Source of the DNA: Maricaulis sp.
Lineage (GTDB): Bacteria; Pseudomonadota; Alphaproteobacteria; Caulobacterales; Maricaulaceae
Reading direction: 5' to 3'
Length of the DNA stretch: 62,084 nt
Assembly (NCBI GenBank): GCA_017643585.1
Contig: JAEPND010000015.1
Location: 1-62,084, forward strand
Shown here piece after piece: positions 5,024 through 26,820 of the stretch. Under the pieces are notes generated by a model, which was given only the letters and a program-made list of their open reading frames with translations, did no database searches and was not told the origin of the DNA. A program made the position numbers and the translations under genes. Within the stretch, counting starts at the first letter, position 1. Each line of letters begins with the position of its first letter.

Positions 5024-6703
5024 GTGGGAAACTGGATCAATTTGCGGTGTATCATCGCAAGCGTGGCCATTTGGCTTGTACCGGGAAACAGCGCAGCTCA
5101 AGCTGCGCCAGCACTCCAGGACGATGCCGTCCAGGCCATAAGCAGGCTAGTCGAGGAAATGGTCGAGCCCGGACAGCCTGGCGCCGGTGTCGGCATTGTG
5201 CTGGGTGGTGATGTCGTCTTCAGCCATTACGCAGGCTTGGCCAATCTCGATACGCCGACACCGATCGACGCAAGCACGCGCTTTAATATTGCGTCGGTCG
5301 CCAAGCAATACACGGCGCTGATGGTGCTGGAGCTCGCGCAATCCGGTCGCGTGGACCTGTCGCAGGACTTCAGGACCTATCTACCCGGTGTGATGGAGGG
5401 GATTGATCCGCCAATCTCGGTGGGTCAGTTGATCAATCACACCAGCGGAATTCGTGACGTCTATGACCTCTACTTCATCACCAATGCCACCTGGTATGAA
5501 ACCGATTTCGATAATCGCACAGCGCTGACATTACTCAACCGTCAGGTCGCGCTCAATTTTGAGCCGGGCACGGATTATCGGTACAGCAATTCCAATTATA
5601 TCCTGCTGGCCGAACTTGTCTCTGCGGTTGTCGATGAACCGTTTCACGTCTACGCAACCCGCTTCCTCTCCGAGCGTGGACTGGGGGATTCCAGTATTCG
5701 GCGGCGTTATGGCGTTGTCATTCCGCGGCTGGCGCGAGCCTATGGCAATTATGGCTCCGGCTGGCTGGAGGATGCGGATATAGCCAATACCCAGGGCGAC
5801 GGCTTCATGTATGCCTCGCTACCGGATCTGCTGCGCTGGGAAACCCAGATCTGGGGTGCAGACAGAAGCCTGCCTGATGACCTGATCGAGATGAGCCAGC
5901 GCCCGATCGAGGGATTGTCCAACCCGGCCTATGGTTACGGATTGGAGTTTGGTTTTTACCGCGGCGCCCGGACCGTCTTCCATGAGGGGGCAACGGGCAG
6001 TTACAATACCCATGTCTTGCGGTTTCCCGATTTTCAGGCGTCGATCGTGGTTGTAAGCAATAATCGCAATATCAGCGCGGTCGCGCTGGCCGTGCGCACA
6101 GCCGATCTTGCCTTTGACAATGTCTTCACCGATGCAGCGACCTATCCCGCTGGTCCTGACGTGATCAGCGATATCGGCTCCCTAGATGGCTTTCTCGGAC
6201 TGTACGAACTGGACAGCGGGACATTTGTCCGGCTGGTCTCACGCGATGGAGATCTGTTCCGGGAAATCGAATGGCGCGAGCCGGTCAGGTTGATCCCCGA
6301 AGCTGACAATCTTTATCACTACGAGACAAATCCGGATCTCCGGCTCACGCTGACACAGTCTGCCGAGGGGCGGCGAGGGTTCGCGCTCTATGCGCCCAGC
6401 CAGAGCCCGCAATTCGCACAGCAAGTCCCGCCAACTCCCGATGAAGAGACCTATCCCGCCAGCATCGAAGGACGTTACTTCAATGCCGAAACGGAAACGG
6501 AGATCATTCTTCAACACACGGCGGACGGTGAGTATGTCATGGTCAAGAATGATCGACCCAGAACGCTGCAGCTTGTGGGACGCGATTACCTGACCTGGAA
6601 TGACTACAGAATCCGGGTGGTGCGGGATGGGCGCGGCCTGTCAACCGGCCTCACCGTCGACCGAAATCGCGTCCGCAACCTCGATTTTCCACGACAGGAC
6701 TAG
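5024..6703 (+). CDS. Secreted serine hydrolase, beta-lactamase/PBP-like fold
   Basis: 559 aa starting at a GTG preceded by a purine-rich stretch (gcggggaaaa). A signal peptide (about residues 1-26) leads to a class C beta-lactamase-type domain with the SxxK nucleophile motif (SVAK in FNIASVAKQY) and the YxN motif (YSN in RYSNSNYI). It also has HTSG and a late HEG motif in place of KTG. The C-terminal 190 residues form a beta-rich domain seen in long serine hydrolases of this superfamily. Such proteins act in the periplasm as peptidases or esterases on unknown substrates; resistance activity should not be assumed. Codon use is less GC-biased than in the ABC exporter next to it. Confidence 0.85.
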   Translation: MGNWINLRCIIASVAIWLVPGNSAAQAAPALQDDAVQAISRLVEEMVEPGQPGAGVGIVLGGDVVFSHYAGLANLDTPTPIDASTRFNIASVAKQYTALMVLELAQSGRVDLSQDFRTYLPGVMEGIDPPISVGQLINHTSGIRDVYDLYFITNATWYETDFDNRTALTLLNRQVALNFEPGTDYRYSNSNYILLAELVSAVVDEPFHVYATRFLSERGLGDSSIRRRYGVVIPRLARAYGNYGSGWLEDADIANTQGDGFMYASLPDLLRWETQIWGADRSLPDDLIEMSQRPIEGLSNPAYGYGLEFGFYRGARTVFHEGATGSYNTHVLRFPDFQASIVVVSNNRNISAVALAVRTADLAFDNVFTDAATYPAGPDVISDIGSLDGFLGLYELDSGTFVRLVSRDGDLFREIEWREPVRLIPEADNLYHYETNPDLRLTLTQSAEGRRGFALYAPSQSPQFAQQVPPTPDEETYPASIEGRYFNAETETEIILQHTADGEYVMVKNDRPRTLQLVGRDYLTWNDYRIRVVRDGRGLSTGLTVDRNRVRNLDFPRQD

Positions 6704-6846
6704 GTGCTCGGAGATCGCCTATCGTCCAGCCGCTCTTGCACGCTGGCACAGGTTGCAAGGGCAAAGGACTGGACGGTCAGGGCAATGAGGCGAATGGAGG
6801 GCATGATGACCCGGTTTGCCTACGTTGAAGCCTGCCAGCGCGCGCG

Positions 6847-7965
6847 TCAGTTCGCTCCGGCGTGAAGGTGTTGGGCGATTTCCACGCTCAGACCTGCCAG
6901 CTCGCCGTAATCCACGCCATTATTGGAGATCACGATGACGATTTCCTGCGATTGCGGCAACAGGGTGAGCATCGAAACATGGCCGGCAATGCGTCCGTTA
7001 TAGGTGCGGACCGCGATCATCTCGCTGTCATCGAGTGTCGGAACCTCGGTCAGGATCCAGGTCATGGGCTGGTCTGGGTCGAGCATGACAGCCTGGCTCT
7101 CCTGGCTGAGGAAATCACCTCGCATCATGGCCTGCCCCCAGGCCAGTAGGTCGGTGGCTGTTACATGCAGGCTGCCCGTAGCTCGGAAGACCGCCGGGTT
7201 TTCTATCTCGACCTGGAAATATCCACCGTCTTCGTCGGGCATGTAGTTGCCTGCCAGGCGAAGCCTCTCGTCCTGTTGGTAAATCTGGCCGGTGGCCGTG
7301 AGGCCTGCAGGTTCAAGTAACTGGCTGATCAGCTGTTGTTCATAGGGCTGGTCGCCGACCCGGTCGAGAATCAGGCCGAGCAGATAGAAATTGGCGTTCG
7401 AGTAATAATACTCCGTGCCGGGGTCAAAGCGCAGCGGCATGCTGGCGAGCGTGTCCAGCAGGTGTTCGCGGGTATAAGGCAGTTTCCCGCCCGGCTCGAA
7501 CCAGCCCGGCAGGTCGATATAGTGCGGCAGGCCGCTGCGGTTCTGCAGCATCTGGCGCACCGTGACCGTGTTGGCCCAGGGCGCCACGAACTCCGGCAGG
7601 ACAGAGGCCAAGCTCGCATCAAGCTCCAGTCGCCCCGCCTCGACCGCTTGCAGGGTGAGCACGGTTGTGAAGGTCTTGGTCAGCGAGGCGACAACAAAGG
7701 ATGTGTCGGCATCGACAGGGATATTCGCCTCGCGGTTGGCCAAACCGAACGAGGTTTCGAAAATCTGCTCATTCTCCCGCACGACCAGGACATTGCCACT
7801 AAACTGAGTTCGCTCCGCCCAGCTGTCGACGATGGGCGCAAAGGCACTGGTTTGCGCCTCGACTTGCTCCACCTCTTCTGTTTGCGCCGTGATCTCAGCG
7901 GGCTGCCCACAGGCCACCAGTGCCAGGCACGAAAGAGGAAGGGCGATAAGTGCGGGGAAATTCAT
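6847..7965 (-). CDS. Lipoprotein serine hydrolase, beta-lactamase/PBP-like fold
   Basis: 372 aa with a lipoprotein signal ending in the lipobox LVAC-G, so it is predicted to be lipid-anchored. The catalytic core has SLTK (SxxK, in VASLTKTF), YSN (YYSNANF) and a C-terminal GHVSM that stands where KTG would be. This places it with the class C beta-lactamase-related hydrolases of unknown substrate. A ribosome binding site (gagatctcc) precedes the ATG on the minus strand. It converges with the larger hydrolase at 5024-6703; the two are only distantly similar, so this is not a recent duplication. The 143 bp between them hold no recognisable feature. Confidence 0.85.
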   Translation of the reverse strand: MNFPALIALPLSCLALVACGQPAEITAQTEEVEQVEAQTSAFAPIVDSWAERTQFSGNVLVVRENEQIFETSFGLANREANIPVDADTSFVVASLTKTFTTVLTLQAVEAGRLELDASLASVLPEFVAPWANTVTVRQMLQNRSGLPHYIDLPGWFEPGGKLPYTREHLLDTLASMPLRFDPGTEYYYSNANFYLLGLILDRVGDQPYEQQLISQLLEPAGLTATGQIYQQDERLRLAGNYMPDEDGGYFQVEIENPAVFRATGSLHVTATDLLAWGQAMMRGDFLSQESQAVMLDPDQPMTWILTEVPTLDDSEMIAVRTYNGRIAGHVSMLTLLPQSQEIVIVISNNGVDYGELAGLSVEIAQHLHAGAN

Positions 7966-8082
7966 GGAGATCTCGTGGTTTGGTCGTCAGGCGAGGCGCA
8001 AGGCGCATCGCGTTTCCACGCTGACATTACTACCGTCGGCGTTGAGTGCATCGTCTTGTTTTGAAAAACAATCGCTTGAGAG

Positions 8083-8158
8083 TGGCTCCCCCGGACGGGC
8101 TCGAACCGCCGACCCGGTGATTAACAGTCACCTGCTCTACCAACTGAGCTACAGGGGA
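8083..8158 (-). tRNA. tRNA-Asn (GTT)
   Basis: 76 nt on the minus strand. The acceptor stem TCCCCTG pairs with CGGGGGA, followed by G and an encoded CCA (8083-8085). The D-loop GTAGCTCAGTTGGTAGAGC, the anticodon loop CTGTTAA with anticodon GTT, and the T-loop GGTTCGAGCC are all present. The fold is canonical. Confidence 0.97.
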
Positions 8159-8186
8159 ATACCGTTCTCACAAGCGAGATCGGGCT

Positions 8187-8214
8187 TTTATCAGAGCGTT
8201 GGGCAAATGCGCAA
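8187..8214 (-). promoter_or_regulatory. Candidate promoter of tRNA-Asn
   Basis: Reading leftwards, TTGCGC (8214-8209) and GATAAA (8192-8187) are separated by 16 bp and lie about 30 bp upstream of the tRNA 5' end. The placement and spacing suit a sigma-70 promoter. Confidence 0.5.
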
Positions 8215-8247
8215 GCACCCAAATGCGGCAATCGCACCCGTTTGCTG

Positions 8248-8277
8248 AAAAAAAATCGGGAGCCACGGAGGCTCCCG
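8248..8277 (-). terminator. Rho-independent terminator with no gene upstream
   Basis: Read on the minus strand, an 8-bp perfect stem (CGGGAGCC / GGCTCCCG, loop of 5) at 8277-8257 is followed by one A and eight Ts (8255-8248). It is a textbook intrinsic terminator for leftward transcription, yet no protein gene on the minus strand lies between it and 8527. It therefore most likely ends a small RNA. Confidence 0.85.
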
Positions 8278-8322
8278 AAAAGGCATTGGGTGGATGGTGG
8301 GGTGTCTTCACGGGAAGACGGG
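8248..8322 (-). ncRNA. Candidate small RNA between tRNA-Asn and DUF962 gene
   Basis: Inferred leftward transcript of about 75 nt ending at the orphan terminator 8277-8248. It would contain a 5' hairpin (GTCTTC 8319-8314, loop 4, GAAGAC 8309-8304) and a C-rich single-stranded linker (about 8303-8280, with accccaccatccaccc) that could pair with purine-rich ribosome binding sites. The terminator hairpin follows. A CtrA-type box at 8344-8358 lies about 20-35 bp upstream of the proposed start. The 5' end is a guess. The rest of the 368-bp interval 8159-8526 holds an additional 10-bp dyad and GANTC sites but no plausible ORF apart from the start of the DUF962 gene. Confidence 0.55.
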
Positions 8323-8343
8323 TAGACCATCGCGTTGAATCTC

Positions 8344-8358
8344 TTAATGCGAGGTTAA
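8344..8358. promoter_or_regulatory. Candidate CtrA binding site
   Basis: TTAA-N7-TTAA, the full CtrA consensus of Caulobacter relatives, in an otherwise gene-free interval. It fits the -35 region of a leftward promoter for the proposed small RNA. Confidence 0.55.
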
Positions 8359-8371
8359 TTCGACCGCTAGA

Positions 8372-8410
8372 ATTAGGGATTTGGTTTATTGTCCTTGATG
8401 AATCCCTAAT
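8372..8410. repeat. 10-bp inverted repeat with 19-bp loop
   Basis: ATTAGGGATT at 8372-8381 is matched perfectly by AATCCCTAAT at 8401-8410. It may be a regulator binding site or an RNA hairpin. No T-run follows on either strand. Confidence 0.6.
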
Positions 8411-8526
8411 AGAATCATCAAAATACCGAAGACTCTGAAGACACGCTTTTTACCATGTGCGAGCGCTTCCTTGACCCCGAATCGCTATGCCATACTGATT
8501 CGGACAGCGAATCGGGGAGGTTCGAA

Positions 8527-8883
8527 ATGAGAGAATACAAGACGTTTGGCGAGTTCTGGCCGTTTTACCTGCGCGAGCATTCCGACCCGGCGACGCGCGG
8601 CTGGCACTATGTCGGATCGACGCTGGCCATTGGTGTGCTGCTCTACGCACTGTTCACCCAGACCTGGCTGTTATTGCTGGCGGTTCCGGTCTCTGGCTAT
8701 TTTTTCGCCTGGGTCAGCCATGCCTTTGTCGAGCGCAACAAGCCGGCGACCTTTACCTACCCGTTGTGGTCGCTGATCGCAGACTACAAGATGTTCGGCA
8801 TGTTCCTCATGGGCAAGCTCGGACCGGAACTCGAGCGGGCCGGTGTGACGGCCAAGTCCTCTGCCGCTGAAGCGGAAGGCTAG
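8527..8883 (+). CDS. DUF962 / Mpo1-like membrane protein
   Basis: 118 aa from the ATG at 8527, chosen over an earlier in-frame start because GGGAGG at 8515-8520 lies just upstream. The sequence matches the DUF962 family: an N-terminal FGEFWPFYLREHSDPATRGWH block, two hydrophobic segments (about residues 28-58), the conserved HAFVERNKPATF motif, then a third membrane-touching region. The yeast homologue Mpo1 is a dioxygenase that alpha-oxidises 2-hydroxy fatty acids, and the conserved His residues agree with that fold. The bacterial role is not established. The upstream region is unusually rich in GANTC sites. Confidence 0.85.
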   Translation: MREYKTFGEFWPFYLREHSDPATRGWHYVGSTLAIGVLLYALFTQTWLLLLAVPVSGYFFAWVSHAFVERNKPATFTYPLWSLIADYKMFGMFLMGKLGPELERAGVTAKSSAAEAEG

Positions 8884-8915
8884 ATCCTAATCCCGGGCGC
8901 GCTAGCTCATGCAGT

Positions 8916-10436
8916 ATGGCGAGCTCGGGTCCTGTTCAAATTGTCTGGTTCAAGCGCGACCTGCGGGTCAGCGATCACGCCGCGCTGAGTGCAGCGTCGG
9001 CGCTTGGGCCTGTCCTGCCGCTCTACATCATCGAGCCGACCTATTGGCGTCAGAATGATGTCTCTGGCCGCCAGTATGACTTCCTGGTGCAATGCCTTGA
9101 GGGGCTGAATACGGATCTGCCGGCGCTGGGCAGCCCGCTCTGTATTCGCGTCGGTGATGCCGTCGACATCCTCGCAGATCTCACCCGCCAGTTTCCCGGC
9201 TGCACGCTGTGGTCTCACGAGGAAACCGGCAATGCCTGGACCTATCAACGCGATCTTGCCGTGGCGCGGGCCTTGCGCGATGTATCGGTCGGGTGGAACG
9301 AACACAGCCAGGGCGGCGTGGTCCGGCGGCTGCCCTCGCGCGATGGCTGGGCTGGAAACTGGCAACGCCATGTCGCCGCGCCGGTCGCCGGTCGACCGGT
9401 CCTGCAGCCAGCGCCGGGTGTCCGACGTGACAGGGTGCCTGAACCGCAGGAGCTGGGCTTGCAGCCCGAGCGGGCCGGTCAAGCCGGAGGGCGCCGTGCC
9501 GCCGAGCACGTGCTCGAAGGGTTCCTGATTGAACGCGGTGAATTCTACCGGTCGGCCATGTCGAGCCCGCTGGACGGGGCTGCGGCCTGTTCGCGGCTCT
9601 CACCGCATCTGGCGCTCGGGGTGATGAGCGTCCGCGAGGTTTATCATCGTCTGCAGCATCGCCGCGAGGATGTCCCCGCGGGCGCGGCAGGACGCAATTG
9701 GCGCGGTTCGCTGCAGAGCTTTCGCTCCCGACTGCAATGGCGCGACCATTTCATGCAGAAGCTGGAAGATCAGCCCTCGATCGAATTCGAGAACCTGCAT
9801 CCGGGGCTATCAGGGCTCGAGCGCGACGCGGTTGATGACGCGCGCATGGCGGCGTGGCGCGAGGGGCAGACCGGTATTCCCTTTGTTGACGCCTGCATGC
9901 GTTCGCTCAACCGGACGGGCTGGCTGAACTTTCGCATGCGGGCCATGCTCGTCTCCTTCGCCAGTTACCACCTCTGGCAGCCCTGGCAGGCGTCAGGGCA
10001 GCACCTGGCGCGCATGTTCCTGGACTATGAGCCAGGCATCCACTGGTCCCAGGTCCAGATGCAGTCCGGTACGACGGGGATCAACACGATCCGCATCTAC
10101 AACCCGGTCAAACAGGGGCACGACCAGGACCCGGACGGTGTCTTCATCCGGCAATGGTGCCCGGAGCTGGCCGATATTCCCGACAGTTTCCTGCATGAGC
10201 CCTGGAAGTGGTCCGCGCGCGATGTCGGTGCTCGGGGGGCGTATCCGGCGCCAATTATCGATGTCGCTGCGGCGGCACGGGCGGCGCGTGACCGAATCCA
10301 CGCGGCGCGCAAGGCGCCGGGCTTTCGCGATGAGGCAGCCAGCATCGTGCGCAAGCATGCCAGCCGGTCCGGTCGCCGACGCTCGACGACACGATCCGGC
10401 GGAAAACCGTCCAATCAACTGACGCTGGGGCTTTGA
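8916..10436 (+). CDS. Cryptochrome/photolyase family flavoprotein
   Basis: 506 aa. The N-terminal half is an antenna-type Rossmann domain ([18 protein letters not shown]); the C-terminal half is the FAD-binding helical domain with [31 protein letters not shown], the [19 protein letters not shown] loop and RIYNPVKQ. The chain is of normal photolyase length. This C-terminal signature is that of the FAD-binding domain / cryptochrome-like subgroup often found beside DUF2256 genes, rather than a textbook class I CPD enzyme. It probably uses light to repair UV lesions in DNA. It starts a cluster with DUF2256, PhrB and an SDR. Confidence 0.85.
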
Positions 10437-10437
10437 G

Positions 10438-10578
10438 ATGGCCCGTCATTCCTCTCGCCAACCCAAGCCAACCAAGACCTGCCCGGTCTGCCAGCGGCCC
10501 TTCGAGTGGCGCAAGAAATGGGAGAAGGTCTGGGACAAGGTGAAATACTGCTCGGAGCGCTGTCGCCGCGCGCGTTAG
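10438..10578 (+). CDS. DUF2256 zinc-ribbon protein
   Basis: 46 aa, one base after the photolyase stop, so almost certainly co-translated with it. The sequence contains [18 protein letters not shown] and KYCSERC, giving a CxxC...CxxxC zinc ribbon rich in Lys/Arg, diagnostic of DUF2256. Such small proteins are commonly encoded next to, or fused with, photolyase/cryptochrome genes; their biochemical role is unknown, with nucleic acid binding a reasonable guess. Its stop codon overlaps the converging PhrB stop by a few bases. Confidence 0.88.
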
Positions 10579-12089
10579 AGCGAGGCGAGGAACGCTCCGG
10601 CACTGTTGCGCAGGGCTGACTGGCGGTCAGCGTCCATGCGGTCCCAGTTGCGATAGACGGGGCCAAGCCGCGGATTGCCGCGCAATGTCGCGTCGTGACG
10701 TGCGAGGAAGTCCCAGTAGAGCGCATTGAAAGGGCACGCTGTCGGCCCGGTTTTCTGTTTCACATCGTATTTGCAGTCGGAGCAGTAATCCGACATGCGA
10801 TCGATATAGGCACCGCTGGCCGCATAGGGTTTCGAGCCCAACAGCCCGCCATCGGCAAACTGGCTCATGCCGATCACATTGGGCGCTTCCACCCACTCAT
10901 AGGCATCGGTGTAGACGGCCAGGTACCACTCGTGCACCTCGAAGGGGTCGACGTCCGCCAGCATCGCGAACAGGCCGGTCACCATCAGCCGCTGGATGTG
11001 ATGCGCGTAACCCAGTTCCAGGGTTTGTCCGATGGCCTTGGACAGGCAGGTCATGTCCGTCTCGCCGGTCCAGTAGAAGTCGGGCAGGGGGCGGCGGGCA
11101 TCCAGCGCGTTGCGGCGGACATAATCCGGGCCTTCGCGCCAATAGATGCCGCGCACATATTCGCGCCAGCCGAGGATCTGGCGGATGAAGCCCTCGACGG
11201 CATTGAGCGGAGCGCGGCCTTCGCGATATTCGCGCTCTGCCCGCTGGCACAGATCGAGCGGATCGAGCAGGCCGGCATTGAGCGCTGTCGACAGGTTGGA
11301 GTGATAGAGCAGGGGCTCTGCGGCCAGCATGGCGTCCTGGTAATCCCCGAAACCCGGAAGGGCGTGTTGCATGAAATGATCACGCGATTGTTCGGCTTCG
11401 GCGCGGGTGACCGGAAGATCGAACCTGTCCAGGCTGCCGGGATGTTCCGCGAACCGGTCTGCGACGAGGTCGAGCACCTCCTGCGTCACCGCATCCACCG
11501 GTGTTGCATGACGCGGCGGCATGAACAGGCTGGCTTCGGCGGGCTTGCGATTATCCTTGTCGAAATTCCACTGACCGCCGACAGGTTTGTCGCCGTCCAT
11601 GAGCAGGCCGGTGCGCTTGCGCATCTCGCGGTAGAAATATTCCATGCGCAGCTGCTTGCGGCCCTCGGCCCAGCGCGCGAAGTCGTCATGGGATGCAAGG
11701 AAGCGCCCGTCCTCGGCGACAAGCACCGGCAGGCCGAGCGTGTCGGCCCAGCTGCGCATCTCCTGGTGCAGGCGCCATTCCCCCGCCTCGGTCACAAGAA
11801 CACGCTTGTAGGAACCGTCCTGCAGGGTGCGGGCAACGGCCTCGCGAAGGCTCGCAAGGCCAGCGTCCAGCGTGAAATAGGTAACGTTCCAGCCCGTTGC
11901 GCGCAGCGCGTCGCGGAAATGGCGCATGGCAGAAAAGGTGAAGGCCAGCTTGCGCTTGTGATGGCGAACATAGAACGCCTCATCCGTCACCTCGGCCATG
12001 ACGATGTGGGCCGTCTGGGGGCTGGCCTGTGACAGGCTGGAGATCTGGGGCGTCAGCTGGTCACCCAGAATGAGAACGAGATCGGTCAT
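10575..12089 (-). CDS. phrB: FeS-containing (6-4) photolyase of the PhrB/FeS-BCP class
   Basis: 504 aa. It begins with the family-typical [16 protein letters not shown]. The C-terminal region carries the four cysteines of the [4Fe-4S] cluster ([10 protein letters not shown]...CPFNALYW plus an upstream Cys in [10 protein letters not shown]), and the FAD-binding domain has [20 protein letters not shown]. The class repairs (6-4) photoproducts in Agrobacterium (PhrB), using FAD and a lumazine antenna. Its length matches the family. It converges on the DUF2256 gene, and the SDR gene upstream is divergent. The gene was probably selected together with the neighbouring photolyase for UV tolerance in surface water. 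Confidence 0.93.
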
Positions 12090-12156
12090 GCCTGCCCTTT
12101 TCGCTGTACCTGCATGATCTACGTCTGGTGAACGGGGTTGGACCTGTCAGCGGAGC

Positions 12157-12840
12157 ATGATCTTGACGAAAATAGTCATCGGGGCGAGCGGGGCGATTGG
12201 CGCGGCAATCGCCGACCGGCTGGAAGAGCAGGGCGATACGGTGTTGCGCGTGGCACGCACAACGACGCCTGCGCTGGACCTGACAGACGAGGCCAGTATC
12301 AAAGCCGTCGCCGACCATGTTCGCGAGGCCGGGCAGCCGGTGGAACTGGTGTTTGATGCCACCGGTTTCCTGCACGGTAACGGGTATATGCCCGAACGCA
12401 GCTGGCGCGCGCTGGACGCCGAACACATGCTGCTGGATTACCGGCTCAACACGGTTGGACCGGCCTTGTTGATGAAGCATTTCCTGCCCCTGCTGCAGCG
12501 TGGTTCGCGCGCGGTTTTCGCCACCTTGTCCGCCCGGGTCGGGTCGATTTCAGACAATCGGCTGGGCGGGTGGCACAGCTATCGCGCATCCAAGGCGGCA
12601 TTGAACCAGATGGTGCGGACCTGTTCGATCGAGCTGGCGCGCAAGAACCCCGAGGCGATCTGTGTCGCGATCCATCCCGGCACGGTTTCCAGTCGGCTGT
12701 CAGAGCCGTTCTCCAAATCCGGGCTGGATGTGCGTTCGCCCGAAGTCGCCGCAGCGGAGATACTGGACGTGCTGCAGGCGCTTGAGCCGGCCGATACGGG
12801 TAACCTGTTCGATCACAAGGGAAAGCGGGTGGAGTTCTGA
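12157..12840 (+). CDS. SDR family oxidoreductase, CsgA-like
   Basis: 227 aa with an N-terminal NAD(P)-binding GASGAIGAAI and the catalytic YRASKAALNQ (Tyr and Lys present). The family-specific patterns DATGFLHG, LNTVGPALL and FATLSARVGSISDNRLGGWHSY are typical of the C-factor/CsgA-like short-chain dehydrogenases. Members of this group are frequently encoded near photolyase genes, and it is divergent from phrB by 67 bp here. The substrate is unknown. A second, more distant SDR of the same broad type lies at 48484-49179. Confidence 0.85.
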   Translation: MILTKIVIGASGAIGAAIADRLEEQGDTVLRVARTTTPALDLTDEASIKAVADHVREAGQPVELVFDATGFLHGNGYMPERSWRALDAEHMLLDYRLNTVGPALLMKHFLPLLQRGSRAVFATLSARVGSISDNRLGGWHSYRASKAALNQMVRTCSIELARKNPEAICVAIHPGTVSSRLSEPFSKSGLDVRSPEVAAAEILDVLQALEPADTGNLFDHKGKRVEF

Positions 12841-12903
12841 CGGCGTGGGTACCAGGAGGGCTCCGAGGGGCACCTCTTCGCGCACTCGCTTCGCTCGTAT
12901 TCA

Positions 12904-12931
12904 CGCTTCAGGTGGCTCGCCACCCGAAGCG
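12904..12931. repeat. Two-part hairpin downstream of tRNA-Cys
   Basis: CGCTTC-A-GGTGGC / GCCACC-C-GAAGCG forms a 12-bp stem with one internal mismatch and a 2-nt loop. It lies between the SDR stop and the tRNA-Cys 3' end. There is no T-run; it may help terminate or process either transcript. Confidence 0.5.
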
Positions 12932-12945
12932 CGAAGCGCGAAGGG

Positions 12946-13019
12946 TGGAGGCACCGCCCGGAATCGAACCGGGGTTCACGGATTTGCAATCCGCTGCGTA
13001 GCCACTCCGCCACGGTGCC
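12946..13019 (-). tRNA. tRNA-Cys (GCA)
   Basis: 74 nt on the minus strand: acceptor GGCACCG / CGGTGCC, discriminator T followed by encoded CCA, anticodon loop ATTGCAAAT with anticodon GCA, and T-loop GGTTCGATTCC. The U73 discriminator is typical of tRNA-Cys. Confidence 0.97.
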
Positions 13020-26805: not shown

Positions 26806-26820
26806 TTAAAAGGACATTAA
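26806..26820. promoter_or_regulatory. Candidate CtrA binding site before the DUF2145 copy 2 operon
   Basis: TTAA-AAGGACA-TTAA, a complete TTAA-N7-TTAA box, 24-38 bp upstream of the small-protein start on the minus strand. Such a close position would suit a -35 or leader position. Confidence 0.5.

Follow-up and report, generated by a model that had tools for sequence, protein, structure and literature searches.

A putative CtrA-activated small RNA gene beside tRNA-Asn in Maricaulis and its relatives

Introduction

Does the interval between a tRNA-Asn gene and a divergent Mpo1-like gene of a Maricaulis sp. contig contain a separate transcription unit and, if so, what drives it and what does its product do? 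The initial annotation of the window (the whole stretch of 62,084 nucleotides that was analysed) had pointed here to a leftward terminator, a second hairpin, a C-rich linker and a TTAA-N7-TTAA box, and had suggested a CtrA-regulated small RNA (sRNA) that is not annotated. The comparative analysis described below favours, with a probability of roughly 0.75, the reading that 8319-8248 on the minus strand is a non-coding sRNA gene that has a terminator and a promoter of its own, that phosphorylated CtrA activates this promoter and that the linker of the RNA pairs with mRNAs. The features concerned are as follows.

8083..8158, minus strand: tRNA-Asn (GTT), syntenic downstream neighbour, outside the RNA
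8248..8319, minus strand: small RNA gene, about 72 nt, with +1 inferred at 8319; match span of the covariance model
8248..8278, minus strand: intrinsic terminator (stem-loop, 8278-8256; U tract, 8255-8248)
8279..8303, minus strand: C-rich single-stranded linker, putative pairing region
8304..8319, minus strand: 5' hairpin GUCUUC-CCGU-GAAGAC, 6 bp
8326..8331, minus strand: -10-like element GATGGT, with A(-11)/T(-7) conservation
8344..8358, minus strand: CtrA-type box TTAA-N7-TTAA, perfect, -39 to -25
8455-8883, opposite strand to the RNA: Mpo1-like gene, nearest upstream gene, divergent
12946..13019, minus strand: tRNA-Cys (GCA), separated from the RNA by three genes here

Structure of the RNA

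The leftward terminator was confirmed. It is a stem-loop at 8278-8256 whose nine pairs include seven G-C, and on the minus strand a run of eight T comes directly after it. Terminator-like sites number three in 6500-10500 compared with 2.7 in shuffled sequences, a pattern count that is not significant alone, and the present site has the most pairs of the three. The nearest upstream gene, the Mpo1-like one, lies on the other strand, and tRNA-Asn follows the terminator on the same strand at 8158-8083. The 72-nt unit folds with -26.2 kcal/mol (z -6.2), a value equalled by none of 200 shuffles, and the same fold shape is obtained for homologues from Caulobacter (L173; z -4.7), from genome G214 (L284; z -4.5) and from a family outside the order (L131; z -8.1). 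In G214 the RNA is placed at 1,726,381. The Caulobacter RNA at L173 is 68 nt long. The second hairpin proposed initially stands as the 5' hairpin at 8319-8304, whereas the larger outer stem GAUGGU/ACCAUC obtained by folding 8335-8248, which begins upstream of the inferred +1, is not conserved in an alignment of 30 loci and was rejected.

The unpaired linker reads ACCCCACCAUCCACCCAAUGCCUUU (5' to 3', minus strand), and the CCUCC motif is absent from it (8279-8303). It is invariant within the genus in the 30-locus alignment and is the best-kept part of the RNA among the homologue rows, with CACCA present in the linker of 108 of 109 rows and CACCAT in 105.

Covariation, which had been proposed as a check, also supports a structured RNA. 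Alignment A4, with 53 distinct rows, was fitted to the model, so that its structure counts lean towards structure; standard pairs occupy 98.8% of its cells, and in nine of the 15 pairs both partners have changed. None of 500 shuffles reached any of the five measures, and the signal was lost when the partners were slid. Eight of the nine terminator-stem pairs have changed on both sides, while the 5' stem is nearly invariant (99.7% of cells paired, one pair changed on both sides), and the compensatory changes support the predicted structure mainly for the terminator stem. Two of the features by which an intergenic bacterial sRNA gene is recognized, its own terminator and a conserved secondary structure, are present. 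In two loci of family f5 (L028 and L030, at about 1283-1395) the core and box are kept and the usual terminator is replaced by a different, longer 3' part (GACAGTGAG...CTCGC).

Distribution

The initial DNA search (query 8083-8420; 61 genomes) gave many matches to the tRNA only. Conservation of the hairpins in relatives had been set beforehand as a test, and all 30 loci fetched from this search carry the core GTCTTC...GAAG..ACCCCACCAT; in their alignment the RNA and both TTAA half-sites stay, and outside the genus the rest of the upstream region is no longer conserved. Thirteen of these loci served to build a covariance model (R1), which was applied to 299 genomes sampled within the order; at E<=0.001 it matched 187 of them, with a single match in 183, and had no match in 112. 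The RNA is normally single-copy. In the window's own family (f1) 56 genomes had a match and four misses were found among those listed; a further 92 misses seem to come from other families. A second model (R2) was built from 56 sequences and applied to a selection of 40 genomes, half of them R1-positive and half R1-negative. It matched 31 of the 40 at E<=0.001, and these include 11 R1-negatives and two of the four listed f1 misses. Nine of the 40 had no match at this threshold, and two f1 genomes (G023 and G279) were negative with both models.

A genus judged to be Caulobacter (g28) had matches in 56 of 75 at E<=0.01, and the Caulobacter loci L173, L174 and L179 have one common core sequence. 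Each of the weak members L126-L130 has tRNA-Asn as a neighbour. A scan of genome contigs returned 21 stretches, including those of Caulobacter, Phenylobacterium and uncultured relatives, with C. crescentus not among them. At the level of the class, 24 of 385 sampled genomes matched at E<=0.001, four of them from the order, and 14 genomes from six families outside the order have matches at E<1e-9 together with the core. Weak class-level matches (L145-L150, E>5e-6, comprising five of six such matches and an extra weak place in G526) look false, with differing cores and a 7-of-8 box in one of the six; the sixth weak match is in G504 (E 8.1e-4).

Most non-coding RNAs of C. crescentus are reported not to be conserved outside Caulobacteraceae (PMC4117421, excerpt). 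An sRNA with sequence, structure, neighbourhood and a CtrA-type promoter kept across several families would be an unusual fixed point.

Possible function and targets

According to the favoured reading, phosphorylated CtrA would bind 8344-8358 and activate the RNA promoter, and the RNA level would peak while CtrA is active. The 5' hairpin may protect the RNA end, leaving the exposed linker, ACCCCACCAUYCACCC, to pair in trans with short G-rich sites in a single mRNA or in several. Such pairing would mostly repress the mRNAs and would give CtrA a post-transcriptional arm, the RNA probably being a cell-cycle-timed regulator. Such an arm could be a conserved output of CtrA at the RNA level.

The linker had also been credited with the ability to pair with ribosome-binding sites; the C-rich stretch itself is present at 8303-8279, but pairing with such sites in general was not borne out. 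Against 309 heuristically called translation starts in 398 kb of a relative (G009), the mean duplex energy was -12.4 kcal/mol compared with -13.0 (s.d. 0.86) for 30 shuffled linkers, and the best real duplex (-26.8) was no better than the mean best of the shuffles (-27.7). A general anti-Shine-Dalgarno role was thus rejected, and the list of top duplexes, in which a glycerol-kinase-like start was recognized by eye, is not evidence because shuffles score equally well.

Genes for ctrA and gcrA were found in 25 and 24 of 25 relatives, respectively. With the starts of ctrA (25 of 25) 33 of 40 shuffled linkers were at least as low as the real one, as were 20 of 40 with the starts of gcrA (20 of 24); single ctrA/gcrA starts reach -19.0 (L255) and -17.2 (L279). 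A 12-nt complement of the linker outside its own gene was found in only two of 19 genus genomes. Three 10-nt complements occur at 109 places in five genomes of the genus; in a comparison of 85 of these places, no site other than the gene itself is common to all five genomes. Beyond the gene, one site is common to three genomes and six clusters consist of two loci (in one of them both from G009); in the two-genome pair L340/L363 a common open frame begins 25 nt upstream of the 10-nt site.

This outcome of the target searches leaves the alternative that the RNA is a conserved sRNA under CtrA whose linker titrates another small RNA or a protein, as a sponge or decoy, and not mRNAs. The result that no long conserved mRNA complement and no affinity for the ctrA and gcrA starts were found would be in keeping with such a role, and Caulobacter has a known RNA sponge, CrfA (PMC12559287, excerpt). 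However, no candidate partner emerged from the analysis, and short or imperfect mRNA seeds would escape searches of this kind; titration is a possible but unlikely function.

Promoter

The perfect box described initially is present at 8344-8358 as TTAATGCGAGGTTAA, which reads TTAACCTCGCATTAA on the minus strand (8358-8344), and is one of two perfect TTAA-N7-TTAA sites in the 62-kb window, where 0.05 would be expected. The other, TTAAAAGGACATTAA at 26806-26820, is a second candidate CtrA site. Conservation of the box was assessed in 115 promoter rows gathered by hand, in which the genus itself is represented by three loci; removal of four exact repeats and six weak matches left 105 rows, 104 of them usable (L137 ends at the contig end) and with the locus of G040 counted twice (L030 and L130). 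The box retains seven or eight of its eight bases in 103 of the 104 homologues (perfect in 54, 7-of-8 in 49), with L120, at six bases, the sole homologue below this level. It starts between -40 and -38 from the G of GUCUUC in 101 cases and at -19 in two, and shuffled upstream sequences contain a box in 3.8 of 105.

In 80% of the 105 rows position -11 is an A, and in 68% position -7 is a T. A -10 element has its key bases at these two positions, and the +1 was therefore placed at the G of GUCUUC, position 8319. The fixed box and the -10-like bases argue that the RNA has its own promoter. A scan with the consensus of E. coli found no sigma-70 promoters, which is the outcome to be expected if the promoter has no -35 hexamer and is activated by CtrA. 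Sequence comparison establishes where the predicted gene begins and ends, its two stems, its invariant linker and a fixed box-to-start geometry.

Full CtrA boxes in C. crescentus lie near -35 of activated promoters, and at -39 in the CtrA-activated ctrA P2, the geometry of which is that observed here (PMC4287350, excerpt). The motif is likewise that found by CtrA ChIP-seq in H. neptunium, TTAA-N7-TTAAC (PMC7200025, excerpt). A full box near -39 to -35 marks the site as a putative CtrA-regulon promoter, and its conservation at the activator position beyond the genus lends weight to the CtrA-regulated layout proposed at the outset. The box could instead serve another regulator, or CtrA acting as a repressor, so that the conserved sRNA would not be timed by the cell cycle. 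Binding of CtrA is predicted here from the sequence, and in C. crescentus half sites of CtrA are able to mediate repression, but a full box starting near -39 occupies the position of an activator and full boxes follow CtrA levels (PMC4287350, excerpt); we regard this explanation as improbable.

Genomic context

tRNA-Asn lies downstream of the RNA in the same orientation in 37 of 41, 24 of 30, nine of 14 and 12 of 12 loci, a few of which recur between sets. It is on the opposite strand in three loci (L112, L119 and L121) and is absent from the fetched stretch in further loci, the core and box being kept in both cases. tRNA-Cys is directly upstream of the RNA in ten of 41 and four of 14 loci and in two of two short stretches (including L284), which suggests the ancestral order tRNA-Cys, sRNA, tRNA-Asn. 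The window differs in that tRNA-Cys is separated from the sRNA by three genes (8455-13019), namely the Mpo1-like gene, a DNA photolyase gene and, convergent, a photolyase-related gene (DPRP); since tRNA-Cys is directly upstream in several other lineages, these genes seem to have split the old cluster.

In the window and L019 the upstream gene is Mpo1-like and divergent. L173 has a GST gene in its place and L126 and L128 an RND transporter gene, all on the same strand as the RNA, and in L284 the position is taken by tRNA-Cys. The box and RNA stay together despite these changes of identity and strand. A wider survey of upstream open reading frames gave a call in 30 of 32 loci, by a heuristic in which some picks may be on the wrong strand. 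The neighbours in L173 are genes for GST, PCMT and an outer-membrane efflux protein; we take this locus to be the rsaFb/popZ region.

The downstream position of tRNA-Asn in most loci, and the divergent Mpo1-like gene in the window, could be explained by a leader or attenuator of tRNA-Asn, or by a box belonging to the Mpo1-like gene, with no independent RNA. Retention of the core and box where tRNA-Asn is opposite (L112, L119 and L121) or missing from the stretch, and the other identity and strand of the upstream gene in other families, make this very improbable. A small protein-coding unit, for which a 69-codon open frame from 8330 on the minus strand might be invoked, can be dismissed almost entirely, as its ATG is upstream of the inferred +1 and the loop and linker differ in length by 1-2 nt among homologues, changes that break any frame and argue against coding.

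Between the box and the Mpo1-like gene, a stretch at 8360-8420 (ATTAGG...GGCAAGGACGATAAACCAAAT, minus strand) is conserved within the genus and not beyond, and in the window contains the inverted repeat TTAGGGATT/AATCCCTAA; it may be an operator, or it may hold the promoter from which the Mpo1-like gene is transcribed. On the other side, two convergent serine beta-lactamase-like genes (PF00144; 5024-7965) adjoin tRNA-Asn.

Comparison with known RNAs

A search of Rfam 15 at the gathering threshold produced matches to tRNA only and no family for this RNA, in agreement with its initial description as unannotated. A weak match of the linker and terminator to RF02866, ncS16 of Burkholderia (21.8 bits, E 0.048), falls below the cut-off of 48 bits. 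Among the matches listed from open-licence PMC papers, neither a description of the RNA nor the linker string was found.

The known CtrA-related RNA CcnA (CCNA_R0094) of C. crescentus is 182 nt long, lies at the replication origin and has its box at -23, and its homologues are too gappy for multiple alignment (PMC8959179, excerpt). The present RNA, in contrast, is about 72 nt long, lies beside tRNA-Asn with its box at -39 and is easily aligned. The alpha-r8 RNAs (SisA-D) resemble it in combining a hairpin, a pyrimidine-rich single-stranded core and an intrinsic terminator, but they have the core UUUCCUCCCU, four copies and unrelated promoters (PMC12559287, excerpt), whereas UUUCCUCCCU is absent from the unit in the window and the core given above occurs in one copy with a single type of promoter. 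Two C. crescentus RNAs, ChvR and RusT, are also short intergenic sRNAs of the same order. ChvR has 84 nt, lies beside recF and is specific to C. crescentus (PMC6237742, excerpt), and RusT has 118 nt and four stem-loops and occupies the lolA/xth interval (PMC11005374, excerpt); the RNA in L173, by contrast, has 68 nt and GST and tRNA-Asn as neighbours.

In its broadest form, the favoured reading would make this an ancient single-copy CtrA-activated sRNA that is distinct from CcnA and belongs to the core CtrA regulon of the Caulobacter order and neighbouring families, with a linker that silences a small shared set of mRNAs in the cell type in which CtrA is active. We give this extended proposal an even chance. 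Six non-coding RNAs are reported among the CtrA-motif promoters of C. crescentus (PMC4287350, excerpt), and the orthologue from C. crescentus may belong to this group, or may already appear without a name in published RNA-seq tables. Its start would lie at GTCTTCTTTGAAGGC, upstream of a tandem tRNA-Asn.
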